Assembly (NCBI RefSeq): GCF_021533215.1
Contig: NZ_JAJNKA010000001.1
Location: forward strand, 496,001-560,000
Length of the DNA: 64,000 nt
Source: Portibacter lacus
GTDB taxonomy: Bacteria > Bacteroidota > Bacteroidia > Chitinophagales > Saprospiraceae
Direction of reading: 5' to 3'
Of this stretch, positions 15,765 to 52,855 are shown one piece after another. A model generated the notes under the pieces. That model made no database searches. It saw only the letters and a program-made list of their open reading frames with translations, and was not told the origin of the DNA. A program made the translations under genes and the position numbers. Each line of letters begins with the position of its first letter. Position 1 is the stretch's first letter.

Positions 15765-18338
15765 TTACTTCCACTGGAAATCTCCTGTCTCCATACTCCA
15801 GTCATTGCCAAAAAATCCAGCACACTTAATAGCATCTAAGCCAATCTGTAATGCCGAAGAATCAAACAAAGTAAAGTCAGGAAACGAGGTCCCGTTAACC
15901 ATATAGTGATTCGGATAAGTCGCCTTCATGCCCGCAAGTCCAGTTCCAGTAACAACACCGATTGTCGCTACATCACTATCCTGTCTTGGATATACAAAAT
16001 AACTTCCCCATTGTTTTCCACTAAGAGTTACTCCATTGATAACTACTTTTCCTGTTTCTACCTGTATCGGACAATCTTTTAGAAGCGCTTTCCACGCTCC
16101 ATTGCTATCACTATTTCCGTAAATAACAACGTTTCTATCCTTGTAAGTCGCCGCCGAAAAATCAGTATCACGGATCACTTCCACTTTCCCATTTGCTCTA
16201 TAATAGAACGTTTCCGCATCAAACATAGCCTTCATTTTATTCCAATCATTCTCTTGCGCACTCCCTTTCGTTCCATAAACAAAAACCACATTATTTCTAA
16301 AAGCATCCTTAAAGCCACCATTTCTGTGTGGCCCTTTCTCACTTTTCGGTGCAGCGCTTCCTATTTCCCACTTGTCATCTACATGTTTTAAAACCAATTT
16401 TTTAGCACTTCCAGTTTTTATTTCTTGGTCATTCACTACAATTGTTTCTGGAACACTTTCGAAACTTGACAAATCAAGCTCAGCAGTCGCTGTATTTTCA
16501 AAATCAATCGTGAATCCTTCCTCATTATTGAAATTGAAACTACTTAACTCGAAAGGCTTCTCCTGCTGTTGAATAGTAACAAAGTGAGAACTAGCAGAAA
16601 CACCTGGCGATGTGGTATAGAATTCTAATTTCTTTAAAGAACTGGTTTCTGGAATTTTTCGTGCTTTGAAAAAATCAAATAACTGTGGCCAGTCCACGCT
16701 GTGATCTCCATACCAGTGTGTACCATCAGGGTACTCATAATAAACAAAATCATTGTGATATTCACCCAACGTTTTTCTCATATCTTGTGCGATGAAAGTC
16801 GGTACAACATTGTCTTTTTCTCCATGAAGAATATAAACACCCAGATGTAAGTAATTTCGTTTAATTTTTAACGTTCTAGAAGGATTTCCAGCTCTCTGAA
16901 CCATCGCGTCCATTGGCAATAAAGCAGGTGGATTACTCATTTCTGCGACCATTTCTGGAGTCATTCCGAATCGCTTCAGTTGTTCCGCATTCATTGTTCT
17001 TAATCTCCTTGTGAAACTGTTACGGTATTCTAATAAATCAGGATATCCAGCACATGGTGCAATTGCCGCAAAATGATCAGGATAGGTTGCACCTAAGTAC
17101 CATGTTCCATGTCCACCCATCGAGTGTCCTGTTAAATAAACTTTCTGTGGATCCGGCTTGTAAATTGATTTTGCCTCGGCTAAAACTTCCATTGCATCGA
17201 TTCGACCCCAATCTTCCCACGCAAACCCAAACGGTCTTCTGTTCGTCGGAGCAATTAACGTCCCCCAATCTTTCTTTTTATATGCTCGAGCTTGATTCGT
17301 GGCCTCTACAGACGCGCCGTGCACCGAAAGAAATAGCGCCTGATTTTCAGTTGCAGGCTCTGTTGTCGGAGTGACACTGAAATACTGAACACTGTTGTCT
17401 ATTTCACTTAAGAAAGTGCGCTTATGGTAATCATTTTTTGATTTTACTTTCAATGTTACCTCCGTAGCCGCAAGAGATTTTCCCTTTGAATCAATAAGAT
17501 CAAGGTTTATTAAAGCTTCTTCTTCCGAAAGCCCTCCGATTGTTGGAGTTCTGAATGCAATTTTAGTTACTGATAAAGGTGGCAAGTCAATTAGTCCTAA
17601 TCTTAAGCCATCAGATTTGCCCTCTAACGCTGCTTTTACGCTTGAGTTTTTAATCCATTCTTCACTAGAATTAACAACCCTAATTCCACCTAAATATTGC
17701 ATGGATTCCTCATTCAGAATATCTGGTAAGGTCATGTCTCTTGAAGTAAATAACTGGGGAGCACTTGGCTCTATTAGCCTTGCTCGTATTCTTGGGAACC
17801 TTCCTACTTTCATTACAAAGGTATTAAGACCCTTTTTTAGCTTGATCGGAATCAAAGAATATCCAAAATCGTAATGATCACCTTCATGAGGAAAACCATT
17901 GACCAACGCCACAGAATGACCCGATGCTTCGAATAAAACGATCTTTTCTTTTTCTGATGTAAACGATAAATATACAAATGAAGACCGCAAACTTCGATCA
18001 CTGAATGAACTAGTGGAGTCTACACTAATCGCTTCCCATTTCATGGCATCTCCTCTTCCGTCGATATCAAAAATATCACCTGCACTTGGATTGTAACTGC
18101 CATCATTTAAGAATTTATCAAAAACTTGATCCTTAGGGAAGTTGATAGGAGCTCTGCCTTGGACTTTTACAGCCAGACCTTTTTGGAAGACGTGAAAGAG
18201 TTTTCCTTCATTTATTTCATTCACCTTTTCTTTGCCAAAGTATTCGACAATATTTCCTTGCCTATCTTGGCCTGTGGCAAGAAAAAACATTGACATAAAA
18301 AAGAATAAGAAGGGAATAGATCGTAAGTAAGTTTTCAT
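15765..18338 (-). CDS. Secreted alpha/beta-hydrolase (prolyl-oligopeptidase/esterase type)
   Basis: An 857-residue exported protein (signal MKTYLRSIPFLFFFMSMFFL, then TGQ). The N-terminal 300 residues look like beta-sandwich sensor/carbohydrate-binding-like domains. A central alpha/beta-hydrolase domain carries the nucleophile in YLTGHSMGGHGTW (GxSxG, about residue 405), a probable acid in LHGEKDNVVP and a probable base in GTHWYGDHS. The last 200 residues resemble the C-terminal domain seen beside such hydrolases in Planctomycetes and Bacteroidota. It may deacylate polysaccharides or cleave peptides; the polysaccharide genes around it favour an esterase. No T9SS signal. Confidence 0.78.
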   Translation of the reverse strand: MKTYLRSIPFLFFFMSMFFLATGQDRQGNIVEYFGKEKVNEINEGKLFHVFQKGLAVKVQGRAPINFPKDQVFDKFLNDGSYNPSAGDIFDIDGRGDAMKWEAISVDSTSSFSDRSLRSSFVYLSFTSEKEKIVLFEASGHSVALVNGFPHEGDHYDFGYSLIPIKLKKGLNTFVMKVGRFPRIRARLIEPSAPQLFTSRDMTLPDILNEESMQYLGGIRVVNSSEEWIKNSSVKAALEGKSDGLRLGLIDLPPLSVTKIAFRTPTIGGLSEEEALINLDLIDSKGKSLAATEVTLKVKSKNDYHKRTFLSEIDNSVQYFSVTPTTEPATENQALFLSVHGASVEATNQARAYKKKDWGTLIAPTNRRPFGFAWEDWGRIDAMEVLAEAKSIYKPDPQKVYLTGHSMGGHGTWYLGATYPDHFAAIAPCAGYPDLLEYRNSFTRRLRTMNAEQLKRFGMTPEMVAEMSNPPALLPMDAMVQRAGNPSRTLKIKRNYLHLGVYILHGEKDNVVPTFIAQDMRKTLGEYHNDFVYYEYPDGTHWYGDHSVDWPQLFDFFKARKIPETSSLKKLEFYTTSPGVSASSHFVTIQQQEKPFELSSFNFNNEEGFTIDFENTATAELDLSSFESVPETIVVNDQEIKTGSAKKLVLKHVDDKWEIGSAAPKSEKGPHRNGGFKDAFRNNVVFVYGTKGSAQENDWNKMKAMFDAETFYYRANGKVEVIRDTDFSAATYKDRNVVIYGNSDSNGAWKALLKDCPIQVETGKVVINGVTLSGKQWGSYFVYPRQDSDVATIGVVTGTGLAGMKATYPNHYMVNGTSFPDFTLFDSSALQIGLDAIKCAGFFGNDWSMETGDFQWK

Positions 18339-26871: not shown

Positions 26872-27876
26872 ATGAAAAGCGTACTCTCTTGTATACAACC
26901 CACTGGTGACATGCACTTAGGGAACTACTTTGGTGCTGTAAAAAACTGGGTAGATCTGCAGAAAGATTACAAATGCTACTACGGTGTTGTGGACTATCAT
27001 GCGATGACCATGCCCTATGACATTAAGAAGTTGAGAAACAACACTTGGGAGTTGATTTTCAATTTGCTAGCAGTGGGAGTTAAAGCGGAGAATCTTTTCG
27101 TCCAATCTTTAATTCCAGAACATTCAGAACTGGGATGGATATTTAATTGCTTTTGTTCATATGGTCAGTTGACAAGAATGACCCAATTCAAAGACAAGAG
27201 TTCGCAGGTGAGTGAGTCAGGAAGTGATAAGTATATTTCTGTAGGTTTACTGGATTATCCAGTACTACAAGCAGCAGATATATTGATTTATAGAGCGGAT
27301 TATGTACCAGTTGGAAAAGACCAAGAGCAGCATCTAGAATTAACACGAGATATCGCTGGGAGATTCAATCACTCTGTAGGGAAAGAATACTTTGTTCTGC
27401 CAGAAGGACTTTACACAGAAACCCCTAAAATTAGATCTACAGCGGATCCATTGAGAAAAATGAGTAAATCTGCTGGGGAGAAACACTATATTTCTTTATT
27501 CCAGGATGAAGCAAGGATAAGGAAACAAATTAAGTCAGCAGTAACGGATGCCGGAGATGCAGTAGAAGGAAAAATGTCTGAAGGGGTTTACAATCTGTTC
27601 GAGCTATTGAAAATTAGTGGTGGTGCACAAGCGCATGAAAGTCTAACTCATGACTACAATGCCGGAAATCTTAAATATTCGGATTTGAAAGCTGCGACTG
27701 CTGATCAATTGGTGCTACTAACGGATCAATTCAAAGATCAGAAAAGTGATGTAGTTAAGAATAAGAAAGATATCAAATATCAGGTAAAGCAATCTTCTGC
27801 TGAGATTAGAAAGAGAGCACAGGAAACGTTAAGGGAGGTGAAAGATCTGGTAGGATTGTTGAATGTGAAATTGTGA
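26872..27876 (+). CDS. trpS: Tryptophan--tRNA ligase
   Basis: 334 residues, normal for bacterial TrpRS. The class I signatures are SCIQPTGDMHLGNYFGAV (HIGH-like HLGN, residues 15-18) and RKMSKSAG (KMSKS, about 197-201). The indole-site region reads DYPVLQAADILIYRADYVPVG, followed by KDQEQHLELTRDIAGRFN. It charges tRNA-Trp in the cytoplasm. The stop codon is the first part of a heptamer repeat array that fills the gap to the next gene. Confidence 0.96.
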   Translation: MKSVLSCIQPTGDMHLGNYFGAVKNWVDLQKDYKCYYGVVDYHAMTMPYDIKKLRNNTWELIFNLLAVGVKAENLFVQSLIPEHSELGWIFNCFCSYGQLTRMTQFKDKSSQVSESGSDKYISVGLLDYPVLQAADILIYRADYVPVGKDQEQHLELTRDIAGRFNHSVGKEYFVLPEGLYTETPKIRSTADPLRKMSKSAGEKHYISLFQDEARIRKQIKSAVTDAGDAVEGKMSEGVYNLFELLKISGGAQAHESLTHDYNAGNLKYSDLKAATADQLVLLTDQFKDQKSDVVKNKKDIKYQVKQSSAEIRKRAQETLREVKDLVGLLNVKL

Positions 27877-28004
27877 GTCGTGAGTCGTGAGTCTTGAGTC
27901 GTAAGTCGTGAGACGTGAGTCTTGAGTCTGAAGTTAAAATCTGAAATCTGAAATCTGAAATCTGAAATCGTAAATCGTAAATCGTAAATCCAAAATCGTA
28001 AATC
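27873..28004 (+). repeat. Heptanucleotide tandem array filling the trpS-FAH gap
   Basis: Nineteen consecutive units with a 7-nt period (one unit of 6 nt). The units drift from GTGAGTC/TTGAGTC (27873-27928) through TGAAATC (27942-27969) to GTAAATC (27970-28004). The array begins inside the stop codon of trpS (TGA at 27874) and ends 3 nt before the ATG of the FAH-family gene. Confidence 0.9.
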
Positions 28005-48647: not shown

Positions 48648-48666
48648 CCCTTTGATTGATTATCTC

Positions 48667-50595
48667 ATGAAGCAGAACAGTAGATATACAACTTTTAGAT
48701 TTTTCCTATGTGCACTTCTTGCACTTGTTAGTGTATATGGATATAGTCAAGATACAAGGACTTTAGATGGTTCAGGAAATAATACCCTCAATGCAAGTAA
48801 AGGTGCATCGGGAACGATTTTAAATAATATAACAAAGGTAGATTTTGCAGATGGTTATTCTATGCCATCGGCTCCAGATAGAGAAAATCCTAGAGTAATT
48901 AGCAATTTATTGTTTGCTCAGGAGGAAATCATGAATAATAAGGCACTGCTTAGTGATTACAATTGGGTTTTCGGGTTATTTATTGATCACGAGATTCACT
49001 TGATTAAAAATGCAGACGCTTCTGATCTTAGTGAGAATCTAGATATTACTCCTCCCGCAGATGACGAATTTTTCCTTCCGAATGAAAAGATTTTGATGAC
49101 TAGAAGCAGATATGCTGAAAGTACTGGCACTGAGGAAGGAAATCCTAGAAGATATGTTAATGAAAATACAGCTTTTTTAGATGGTTCAGCCATTTATGGA
49201 GTTGATGAGGAAAGAGCTAACTGGTTAAGAAGTCACGTTGATGGTAAGTTGAAAGTTTCTGAGAATAATTTATTACCATGGAATACGACAGATGGTAAGT
49301 TTAATTCTCCAGTTGATGTTTCTGCACCATTCATGAAAGATGAAACTCATAAATTAGTCAAGTATTATGTTGCTGGAGATACAAGAGCAAATAAGACGCC
49401 ATTGCTAATTGGCTTACACACTCTATTTGTGAGAGAGCATAATCGTAATTGTGATATTATAAAGAATAATAGGCCAGACTGGAATGATGAAGAGATTTAT
49501 CAACATGCGAAAAGGATTACCTCTGGAATTCTACAGTCTATCGTATACAATGAATGGTTACCTGCGCAAGGAATTAGTATTCCTCCGTATCAAGGTTATA
49601 ATGAATTAATAGATCCTTCGATTTCTAATATTTTCTCTGCTGCTGCATTTGATATGGGAGCCACATTTATCAATTCTAATGTTATTAGAATGAATAATAA
49701 TGGAGATGAAATATTAGGATCTCTTTCATATAGAGACGGATATTACAATCCAGATGCAGTTTGGCTTTCAGGTGGAATCGAGCCATTCCTTAAGGGGATG
49801 GGAACTCAGTTGCAACAAGAAGCTGATTGTAAAATGATCGATGATATTAGGAACTTCAGATTAGGAGAACCTGGTGAAGGAGGAATGGATATTGCTGCTA
49901 TTAATATTAATAGAGGCAGAGATAGAGGGATTTCGGATTACAACACGGTAAGACAAGATTTAGGTTTGCCAGCGATAAACCAGTTTTCAGATATTTGTGC
50001 TGATCCAACTGTTACCGCTAAAATGGAACAGATTTACGGAAATATTAACAATATAGATCCGTATGTTGGAATGTTGGCGGAAGATCACAAGAATAATGCT
50101 ACTTACGGAGAGTTAGGAATTACGATTCTAGCTAGACAGTTTAGAATGATTAGAGATGGAGATCGTTTCTTCTACCTGAATGATCCTTTGTTATCCAATA
50201 GTGAAAAGGAACAAATCACGAATACGAAGTTGTATCATGTAATATCTAGAAATACAGATATTGAGCTAATGCAAGAGAATGTTTTTCTTGCGATGTTGCA
50301 TGAAAACATTCCTAATGGTCCGGATTTAGAAAGATTGCAACTAAATGCAGCAATTTTCCCTAATCCTATTATCAATGGAGAAACTAACATTAAAGTTTAT
50401 ACTGAAAGAGATTCAGAGCTTAGTCTTCAGTTATTTGATAATATGGGTAGGCTTATCAGAAGTGCTACAGTCGAAATCACAAAAGGTGATAATATCATCC
50501 CAGTAAATTATTTTAATGATTTACCAAAGGGCGCTTATAACTTTAAGCTTGAGAATGACATAGGAATTTTCACAGTCGTTAAAGCCATTAAGTAA
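48667..50595 (+). CDS. Animal haem peroxidase homologue with T9SS type A signal, atypical proximal site
   Basis: About 642 residues from the ATG at 48667 (an open TTG lies at 48652, but the promoter motif argues against it). Signal peptide FRFFLCALLALVSVYGYSQ. Animal-peroxidase features: VFGLFIDHEIHLI (distal His near 106), ENTAFLDGSAIYG, LHTLFVREHNRNC (R-x-x-E) and NINRGRDRGISDYNTVRQDL. The proximal-His segment, normally AAFRFGHxxI, reads AAAFDMGATFINSNV, so both Arg and His are absent. The C-terminus begins NAAIFPNPIINGE and is a T9SS type A sorting signal. Confidence 0.85.
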   Translation: MKQNSRYTTFRFFLCALLALVSVYGYSQDTRTLDGSGNNTLNASKGASGTILNNITKVDFADGYSMPSAPDRENPRVISNLLFAQEEIMNNKALLSDYNWVFGLFIDHEIHLIKNADASDLSENLDITPPADDEFFLPNEKILMTRSRYAESTGTEEGNPRRYVNENTAFLDGSAIYGVDEERANWLRSHVDGKLKVSENNLLPWNTTDGKFNSPVDVSAPFMKDETHKLVKYYVAGDTRANKTPLLIGLHTLFVREHNRNCDIIKNNRPDWNDEEIYQHAKRITSGILQSIVYNEWLPAQGISIPPYQGYNELIDPSISNIFSAAAFDMGATFINSNVIRMNNNGDEILGSLSYRDGYYNPDAVWLSGGIEPFLKGMGTQLQQEADCKMIDDIRNFRLGEPGEGGMDIAAININRGRDRGISDYNTVRQDLGLPAINQFSDICADPTVTAKMEQIYGNINNIDPYVGMLAEDHKNNATYGELGITILARQFRMIRDGDRFFYLNDPLLSNSEKEQITNTKLYHVISRNTDIELMQENVFLAMLHENIPNGPDLERLQLNAAIFPNPIINGETNIKVYTERDSELSLQLFDNMGRLIRSATVEITKGDNIIPVNYFNDLPKGAYNFKLENDIGIFTVVKAIK

Positions 50596-50730
50596 ATATT
50601 ATCAGGTATTTATTTTCTCGTTATCCTTAAGAGTTTTCCATCTAAAGAATTACAGACATAAGCTTAGAGATTTGCGTAATCTGCGGGTCACTTTTTCACT
50701 GTCCACTTTTCTCTAATTTACACACCCTAT
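50596..50730 (+). other. Left flank of the tandem array
   Basis: No gene. It carries a degenerate copy (about 50664-50690) of the 30-bp AAATCTGCGTTAATCTGTGT-type element that recurs in each array unit. Confidence 0.5.
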
Positions 50731-51955
50731 CAAAAAATATTCATAGCATCCGCTGGTAATCGGACAAGTTCCGCTGGTAATCGGGCAAGTTATTCATGTG
50801 GTACCGAGAGTTTTTTACTATCCTGCCATGCCATCTATGCTGTTCCTGTATTTCTGAGATTAGGTTTTTTTATGAAAACAGGAAATGAACGTGACTTTAT
50901 GTTTTAAATCTGCGTTAATCTGTGTGATTTGCGGGCATCTTTTTATGCAGCAGACCATTCAACATTAAAAAAATATTCATAATATCCGCTGGTAAACGGA
51001 CAGGTTCTTCATGTGAAACCAAGAGTTTTTTACTATCCAGCTATGCCATCTATGCTGTTCCTGTATTTCTGAGATTAGGCTATTTTTATGAAAACAGGAA
51101 ATGAACGTGACTTTATGTTTTAAATCTGCGTTAATCTGTGTGATTTGCGGGCATCTTTTTATGCAGCAGACCATTCAACATTAAAAAAACATTCATAGTG
51201 TCCGCTGGTAATCTGGCAGGTTCTTCATGTGAAACCAAGAGTTTTTTACTATCCAGCTATGCCATCTTAGCTGTCCCTATATTTCTGAGATTAGGCTTTT
51301 TGTGAAAGCAGGAAATGAACGTGACTTTATGTTTTAAATCTGCGTTAATCTGTGTGATTTGCGGGCATCTTTTTATGCAGCAGACCATTCAACATTAAAA
51401 AAACATTCATAGTGTCCGCTGGTAATCGGACAAGTTCCGCTGGTAATCTGGCAAGTTATTCATGTGGTATCGAGAGTTTTTACTATCCAGCTATGCCATC
51501 TAAGCTGTCCCTATATTTCTGAGATTAGGCTTTTTGTGAAAGCAGGAAATGTACTTGACTTTTATGTTTTAAAATCTGCGTTAATCTGTGTGATTTGCGG
51601 GCATCTTTTATGCAGCAGTCCATTCAACATTAAAAAAAACATTCATAGTGTCCGCTGGTAATAGGACAAGTTCCGCTGGTAATCGGGCAAGCTATTCATG
51701 TGTGGTATCGAGAGTTTTTTACTATTCAGCTATTCCATCTAAGCTGTCCCTATATTTCTGAGATTAGGCTTTTTGTGAAAGCAGGAAATGTACTTGATTT
51801 TATGTTTTAAATTTGCGTTAATCTGTGTGATTTGCGGGCATCTTTTATGCAGCAGACCATTCAACATTAAAAAATATTCATAGCATCCCCTGGTAATCGG
51901 ACAAGTTCCGCTGGTAATCTGGCAGGTTCTTCATGTGAAACCAAGAGTTTTACTA
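50731..51955 (+). repeat. Tandem array of five full and one partial noncoding unit, about 215/236 bp each
   Basis: Counting from the TCCGCTGGTAA anchor, units begin at 50749, 50985, 51201, 51415, 51651 and 51886, giving periods 236, 216, 214, 236 and 235. The long form has an extra 21-bp copy of CCGCTGGTAATCGGACAAGTT; the short form has one copy. Each unit also contains AAATCTGCGTTAATCTGTGT (50906, 51122, 51336, 51572, 51809), TATGCAGCAG and an AGGAAATGAACGTGAC-like segment. Most periods are not multiples of 3, and the only frame (about 65 codons on the minus strand) is not kept, so it is noncoding. The partial sixth unit ends at the acyltransferase stop codon. Confidence 0.92.
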
Positions 51956-52855
51956 GATATTATCTACTACTTCCTCCCCATTATATTGATGTTTCCATCG
52001 CTTATGACTCCATAGCCAGCTCCCTGGATTTTCTAGAATATCCTTTTCTAGACGGTGCATAAATGCGAGCGTAATTTGGCCATCACCAAATTCATTCGGA
52101 TCTGTAACGAGCCATTCTAATACTAATTCATATTTGCCCCGGCCTTTACGAATAGGACAGCAATAGACAATGGGCATGTTGTATAGTCTAGCATATTTCT
52201 CAGGTCCATGAAGACAAGGAGTTTTTTGATTGAGAAAATCAATCCAATAACCAGACGCGGTATTAGACGGACTTTGGTCAGCAGCAAGGAGAAATAAAGC
52301 TGGTGGATTTGCATGAACATGCTTATCAAAAGCCAATTGCGTCTCTTTTAATTCGTAAAGCGATTCACCAGTATGGGACCTGGTTCTTTTCATATAATCT
52401 TCTAAGTATTTATTATGTAACTTTTTATAGAGCGCAACAGTGTGATGTTTTATGAAGTAGGGTGGTGATAATGCAGCCCATTCCCAGTTGTTGTAATGCC
52501 CAGCCACAAGAATAACTGATTGCTCAGATTCAAAGCAGCCATCTAATAATTCAGGATTCATAAATCTGTAACGATCCATGATTTGCTTTTTATTCATAGA
52601 AGCACCTTTAATCCCTTCCACCATAATGTCCGCTAGGTTTTTATATGCGGATTTGGCAATCAAATTAATGTCTGCATCGGACTTATCAGGAAAAGAATTT
52701 TTTAAGTTTGTAACGATAACTTTTTTTCTATATCCAGTAACTCTGAATAATAGAAAGTAAAGTAAATCAGCGATTTTGTATACTACCCAGAAAGGAAGTA
52801 GTTTAAAAATGAAAAGGAAGATTCTAAATGTGATATAACTTATGTATTTGCCCAT
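51953..52855 (-). CDS. Lysophospholipid/lipid A acyltransferase (LpxL/HtrB family)
   Basis: A 300-residue acyltransferase with an N-terminal membrane helix. The catalytic HxxxxD/E motif is GHYNNWEWAA (about residue 119). Other family pieces are ALYKKLHNKYLEDYMKRTRS, LLAADQSPSN and GSWLWSHKRWKH. It adds secondary acyl chains to lipid A or a related lipid at the inner membrane. The stop codon TAG (51955-51953) lies in the last bases of the tandem array. Confidence 0.92.
   Translation of the reverse strand: MGKYISYITFRIFLFIFKLLPFWVVYKIADLLYFLLFRVTGYRKKVIVTNLKNSFPDKSDADINLIAKSAYKNLADIMVEGIKGASMNKKQIMDRYRFMNPELLDGCFESEQSVILVAGHYNNWEWAALSPPYFIKHHTVALYKKLHNKYLEDYMKRTRSHTGESLYELKETQLAFDKHVHANPPALFLLAADQSPSNTASGYWIDFLNQKTPCLHGPEKYARLYNMPIVYCCPIRKGRGKYELVLEWLVTDPNEFGDGQITLAFMHRLEKDILENPGSWLWSHKRWKHQYNGEEVVDNI

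Follow-up and report, generated by a model that had tools for sequence, protein, structure and literature searches.

The array between two convergent genes

The window is the whole stretch analysed, 64,000 nucleotides of the Portibacter lacus genome (contig NZ_JAJNKA010000001.1, positions 496,001 to 560,000 of the forward strand). Two convergent genes in it are separated by 1357 bp, and most of this gap is occupied by a tandem array (50732-51955) of five units of 236, 216, 214, 236 and 235 bp, followed by a partial sixth of about 80 bp. The unit borders were set by splitting at the anchor ATTCATA (starts at 50739, 50975, 51191, 51405, 51641 and 51876), and Tandem Repeats Finder (TRF) independently returned periods of 216, 235 and 430 with scores of 1247-1587. 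The features are listed below, where E is an imperfect palindrome, carrying one (E1) or two (E2) copies of a 21-mer, and R1 is a CM of E with the 21-mer.

48652-50595, plus strand: left neighbour, animal-haem-peroxidase-like (named from translation); same neighbour in both congeners
50732-50816, minus strand: element E2 (two 21-mers); CM R1 match C11:546732-546816
50739-50974, no strand: unit 1, long form, 236 bp; TRF, anchor split and unit alignment
50749-50790, plus strand: two tandem 21-mers TCCGCTGGTAATCGGACAAGT, the long form; TRF period 21
50906-50935, plus strand: AAATCTGCGTTAATCTGTGTGATTTGCGGG motif of unit 1; recurs at 51122, 51336, 51572 and 51809
50968-51031, minus strand: element E1 (one 21-mer); CM R1, 66.0 bits
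50975-51190, no strand: unit 2, short form, 216 bp; anchor split and unit alignment
51184-51247, minus strand: element E1 (one 21-mer); CM R1, 65.9 bits
51191-51404, no strand: unit 3, short form, 214 bp; anchor split and unit alignment
51398-51481, minus strand: element E2; CM R1 match C11:547398-547481
51405-51640, no strand: unit 4, long form, 236 bp; anchor split and unit alignment
51634-51720, minus strand: element E2; CM R1 match C11:547634-547720
51641-51875, no strand: unit 5, long form, 235 bp; anchor split and unit alignment
51869-51951, minus strand: element E2, ending about 2 bp from the acyltransferase stop codon; CM R1 match C11:547869-547951
51876-51955, no strand: unit 6, partial; left half of E long-type, right half short-type
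51953-52855, minus strand: right neighbour, lysophospholipid-acyltransferase-like (named from translation); same neighbour in both congeners

The preliminary description had counted five full units and a partial sixth, which was borne out by the anchor split, and the order it gave (long, short, short, long, long, then a partial with the duplication) was correct. It had also called the array noncoding, and no ORF of at least 80 aa could be found within it. The long and short forms were said to differ by a 21-bp duplication (TCCGCTGGTAATCGGACAAGT). The duplication is present, but it is not the only difference, since the E segments of long and short units are just 79-82% identical at the shared sites, compared with 94-96% between long forms and 91% between the short ones. 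The unit bodies group otherwise (97% identity for units 1 and 2, 97% for units 3 and 4, 96% for units 4 and 5), and unit 6 is a hybrid, in which a long-type left half is joined to a short-type right half. Since the grouping of the bodies is unlike that of the E segments and unit 6 is a hybrid, the array is a mosaic. E and the unit body thus appear to have had separate histories, and the simplest account would be that units have exchanged segments, breaking near the 21-mers. The suggestion that the array could be a source of recombination is therefore supported by the mosaic units.

Tandem repeats are prone to errors of assembly, and some clusters of the same palindrome family lie close to contig ends (e.g. 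C6:383-951 and C3:220-340). In case of the window array the units diverge from one another by 4-11% and the array is interior to a 726-kb contig, thus a single unit duplicated by the assembler, the artefact considered in the preliminary description, is extremely improbable.

The gene pair is conserved in both congeners, G001 and G002, and so is the regulator next to it. Measured from stop to stop, the orthologous gap amounts to 39 bp in G001, to 294 bp in G002 and to 1357 bp in P. lacus. Because the congener gaps are so short, the window array is, as judged from this comparison, a lineage-specific gain. By inspection, the G002 gap contains a palindromic repeat of another kind, in about three copies (CTTTAAGAGCT...AGCTCTTAAAG, L116:1290-1440). 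Elsewhere in the window, simple repeat blocks occur at 27873-28004, first GTGAGTC (7 bp), then AAATCTG/AAATCGT (7 and 14 bp).

Dispersed palindromes and their clusters

A genome-wide search with the unit, as proposed in the preliminary description, revealed short partial matches elsewhere, mostly on the segment holding the 21-bp duplication. The shared core is the palindrome E, which is dispersed and transposase-associated and carries 0, 1 or 2 copies of the 21-mer in the aligned copies. On the minus strand of the window E reads AAAAAACTCATGGTATCACATNNAG-TTACCTGTCCGATYACCAGCGGA-GGCTATGAATGTTTTTT. The form lacking the 21-mer (E0) is the simple hairpin TCATGGTCTCAC-ATNNA-GTGAGGCTATGA. A second palindrome type, P, has the form TGATGGTCTGAC-CTCCA-GTCAGGCTATCA, and the 21-mer is present inside P-type hairpins too. 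P was not found in the window array, thus no inverted E/P pair is present there. The AATCTGCGTTAATCTGTG motif had been described as of a type widespread in Bacteroidota intergenic DNA; in the P. lacus genome it is not widely dispersed, its exact or one-mismatch matches lying solely inside the array. Looser relatives occur in few other places in 1.14 Mb of P. lacus sequence, nearly all of them tandem arrays, and none was seen in 0.59 Mb of the two congeners. As a candidate for the key shared element AAATCTGCG was rejected, being not dispersed past a few arrays.

The core stem of the palindrome is 12 bp long. In 34 distinct simple hairpins, which had been selected for pairing at 9 or more of 12 positions, 94.9% of the cells were paired, a figure inflated by that selection. 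The selection does not inflate changes on both sides of the stem, and these are the stronger point in the sequence comparison: compensatory C-G/G-C switches are seen at two positions of the stem, one in 15 and the other in 11 of the 34 hairpins, with no pair broken. When the partner was slid by 1-3 columns as a control, pairing dropped to 25-48%. Of 70 hairpins, about 50 retain non-Watson-Crick pairs, G.T and T.G, at two mid-stem positions. No constant tetranucleotide (GTAG/GTGG or CGTC tag) was found outside the stem at the foot of E in the copies listed.

The compensatory changes in related hairpins at other sites of the genome would favour a cluster of structured noncoding RNAs, another suggestion of the preliminary description. 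For the array Rfam gave no match at the gathering score, and its E copies, on both strands, fold no better than shuffled sequences, so a structured-RNA role is highly improbable. The earlier interpretation, which had also named a variable-number locus, is thus supported in part: recombination stands, but neither the structured RNA nor AAATCTGCG as the shared feature does.

For the census of the P. lacus genome we used CM R1 (107 matches at E<=1) and R2, a structural CM for the simple hairpin form (142 matches at E<=0.01). R1 had zero matches in 60 other genomes of the family, and R2 had zero matches in G001 and G002. Two further scans were discarded: a hairpin scan with fixed GGT/GCT was too permissive to tell genomes apart, and the two matches of a strict pattern scan of genome contigs proved on inspection to be chance inverted repeats. 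The merged R1 and R2 matches correspond to about 181 E/P elements at about 88 loci, of which 37 hold at least two elements and 20 at least three; about 179 loci would be expected if the elements were placed at random. None of the 49 classified loci lies inside a called ORF. Within 120 bp of each other, E and P neighbours are inverted in 17 cases genome-wide and direct in 2.

The clusters are often noncoding tandem arrays with units of 140-350 bp (at other clusters 144 bp x7, 153, 169, 173, 178 x5, 188 x6, 199 x5, 213/173, 252, 288 and 343 bp), and the bodies of the units are unrelated between loci. Since the clustering exceeds chance and the bodies are unrelated, the palindrome is the common factor. 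In the stretches surveyed, which are parts of the genomes, 24 noncoding arrays were counted in 738 kb of P. lacus regions chosen for E, compared with 3 in 400 kb of its own unselected sequence, 3 in 237 kb of G002 and 0 in 357 kb of G001. These data bear on the view that the array is an ordinary minisatellite, in which slippage or unequal crossing-over duplicated a stretch of 215 bp and E was a mere passenger. Mosaic units are expected under recombination, and some noncoding arrays have no E or P match (e.g. C43, 201 bp; C42, 262 bp), as such a view would have it. However, the clustering of E/P far above chance, in arrays of unrelated bodies, makes it unlikely as the whole explanation; the minisatellite-type duplication step itself is a component of the explanation that we prefer. 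On C40 a 308-bp tandem unit of about 85% identity is common to two arrays lying 14 kb apart, at about 176.6-178.2 kb (L087:8569-10181) and about 191.7-192.6 kb (L033), and both have E elements at their edges.

According to simple ORF calls, 17 loci are convergent, 24 co-directional and 5 divergent, and convergent gaps are modestly enriched (17/46 loci compared with 90/441 in the background, p=0.014). This preference, the resemblance of the simple form (A5-6, a 12-bp stem and T5-6) to a terminator and the position of the last E in the window, at the acyltransferase stop codon, would all suit a bidirectional transcription terminator (A-run, hairpin, T-run), the array being a reiterated 3'-UTR terminator. 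The A and T runs, however, are missing from many members of the family, and E is also found between divergent genes and directly upstream of genes; the idea that E always marks gene 3' ends was rejected on account of several such upstream copies. Moreover, the window region has a single terminator-like match (50669-50689), which lies outside the array, and the array copies show no excess stability over shuffles. We therefore regard a chiefly terminator role of E as quite unlikely.

The candidate transposase

A protein search started from one TnpA-like gene located a 217-aa REP-associated tyrosine transposase (RAYT) at G000:C2:96704-97357, with an inverted P/E pair on each side; the two pairs are 98% identical. 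Its motifs are MPNHFHW (HUH) and YIHENPVKAGLV (Tyr, YIHENP). The protein matched the NCBIfam family NF047646 (REP_Tyr_transpos) at 1.5e-10, which is under the curated cut-off, and this family was matched by all nine aligned members, i.e. the C2 RAYT and its eight closest relatives. Pfam gave no match for the C2 RAYT, and in the PDB search the single match was TnpA-REP 4er8 (E=0.34, not significant). PF01797 was rejected as a transposase census; since it misses the C2 RAYT, the three PF01797 genes are not the answer. The E/P copies beside the RAYT fold better than shuffles (z -5 to -10).

Relatives of the RAYT were found in 41 of 150 genomes of the family. In eight of the nine closest, long imperfect palindromes lie within 200 bp of the gene, at a density of 3.8 per kb compared with 0.36 per kb elsewhere in those loci, and their sequence is particular to each genome. 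The C2 RAYT has no ortholog in the two congeners, where the best score is at most 45 bits, compared with 355 bits for the protein itself. Distant TnpA/RAYT-like matches number 17 in G001, 1 in G002 and 5 in the P. lacus genome, the congeners having such genes yet no PF01797 match. The presence and absence of the RAYT and of E thus match in the three genomes of the genus, a number too small for a firm test of co-occurrence, and with the qualification that the congeners also hold distant TnpA-like genes.

The association with a RAYT gene is also relevant to the proposal that E is a miniature inverted-repeat element, on which a conventional transposase acts through the A-run and T-run ends. Terminal complementarity (AAAAAAC...GTTTTTT) and dispersal are in line with it. 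However, the ends of E vary by locus and often consist of other palindromic sequence (AATTTC..AATATT, ACCAC..GTGGT), a constant target duplication was not seen, and E/P flank a RAYT gene, all of which renders this proposal very unlikely.

The other TnpA-like genes of the P. lacus genome are surrounded by other palindrome families. At G000:C2 ~16500-17750 (L178:1000-2250) an IS200-like TnpA (156 aa) has GGTGCGCTGCACC-type palindromes on both sides; these are a separate repeat family, present beside E arrays too (L032, L036). Another IS200-like TnpA (153 aa; G000:C42 ~183270-184300, L179:1140-2170) is flanked by GGTGTCGCTCCTCTGGAGC and CCCCAGCGGGG palindromes. A RAYT-like gene of 214 aa (G000:C38 ~203900-205290, L180:820-2210) lies within a noncoding GACGTGTCGC...GTGATGCGTC palindrome array and one of 223 aa (G000:C13, L075:17600-18720) is flanked by CTCGGGTTAAAACCCGAG palindromes, a similar palindrome occurring in the 201-bp array of C43 (L039/L105).

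Origin of the array and relation to known REP systems

Taken together, we consider the array to be a BIME-like cluster of atypical REPs, spread by a RAYT and amplified by recombination, with the RAYT at C2:96704-97357 as the most likely cognate enzyme (probability about 0.78). We infer both a transposition and an amplification step. The RAYT, a single-strand HUH/Tyr nuclease, would cut and join folded E/P DNA and so seed copies in intergenic DNA; E, once seeded between the two convergent genes, would have been duplicated together with the adjoining DNA; recombination or slippage among the units and among the 21-mers would then have produced the long, short and hybrid forms. Since neither DNA strand of the E copies in the array folds better than shuffled sequence, we do not claim that they are substrates of the RAYT at present. 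They are probably decayed and no longer good substrates, and the array looks like a decayed member of the family, for which current mobility is not claimed.

RAYT and REP research has dealt mostly with Proteobacteria. In P. lacus a noncoding array that had no explanation becomes one visible product of a genome-wide repeat system with a candidate enzyme, and the about 88 loci, 37 clusters, congener gaps free of the system and graded 0/1/2 module of this Bacteroidota system make the question of how REPs form tandem arrays a testable one. A further-reaching proposal would be a Bacteroidota RAYT clade that recognises GTAG-less palindromes by their conserved mid-stem G.T/T.G pairs; these palindromes, E and P alike, would carry a 21-nt side-hairpin as an exchangeable module (0, 1 or 2 copies), and the system would actively make tandem arrays of 150-350 bp from flanking DNA. 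We put this forward tentatively, as possible though doubtful.

Canonical RAYTs act on folded single-stranded REPs, which they cut and join, and a BIME consists of two REPs in inverted orientation, BIMEs being frequent as consecutive tandem copies (PMC8266576, PMC3116915); in large REP clusters some units are reiterated together with flanking DNA (PMC3733652). By analogy, the E/P system fits this picture, the tag excepted. As in the REP/BIME and REPIN systems of E. coli and Pseudomonas (PMC3116915, PMC3733652, PMC8266576), the P. lacus genome holds many short extragenic imperfect palindromes, inverted pairs and clusters reiterated in tandem with flanking DNA; the elements are species-specific, have irregular mid-stem pairs and prefer convergent gaps. 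Copies flank a single RAYT gene, and this HUH and Tyr gene between its own palindromes corresponds to a RAYT/REPtron, binding and cleavage of the palindromes as single strands being predicted. Unlike canonical REPs, E/P lack the GTAG tag, have conserved G.T/T.G pairs where the E. coli REP has a mismatch bulge, and may contain inside the element the 21-nt module, which forms a short stem of its own. The unit periods of 140-350 bp differ from those of canonical REP clusters, the P. lacus RAYT, from Bacteroidota, is unlike canonical ones in falling under the NCBIfam cut-off, and the window array departs from a canonical BIME in having E alone, in decayed form.

The closest parallel in the phylum is found in the Bacteroidetes RAYTs of TnpA-Y1 subclass 2.6, whose associated structures are atypical and lack GTAG (Quentin et al. 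2018, PMC6006769). The word 'tandem' is absent from the text of that study (PMC6006769). The motifs of the subclass are NH[LIV]H, WQ and YIH[QN]NP, compared with NHFH and YIHENP in the P. lacus RAYT, where WQ was not placed. The two are alike in phylum, in the NHxH and YIHxNP-type motifs, in flanking structures without GT[AG]G and in copies of these structures elsewhere in the genome (PMC6006769).
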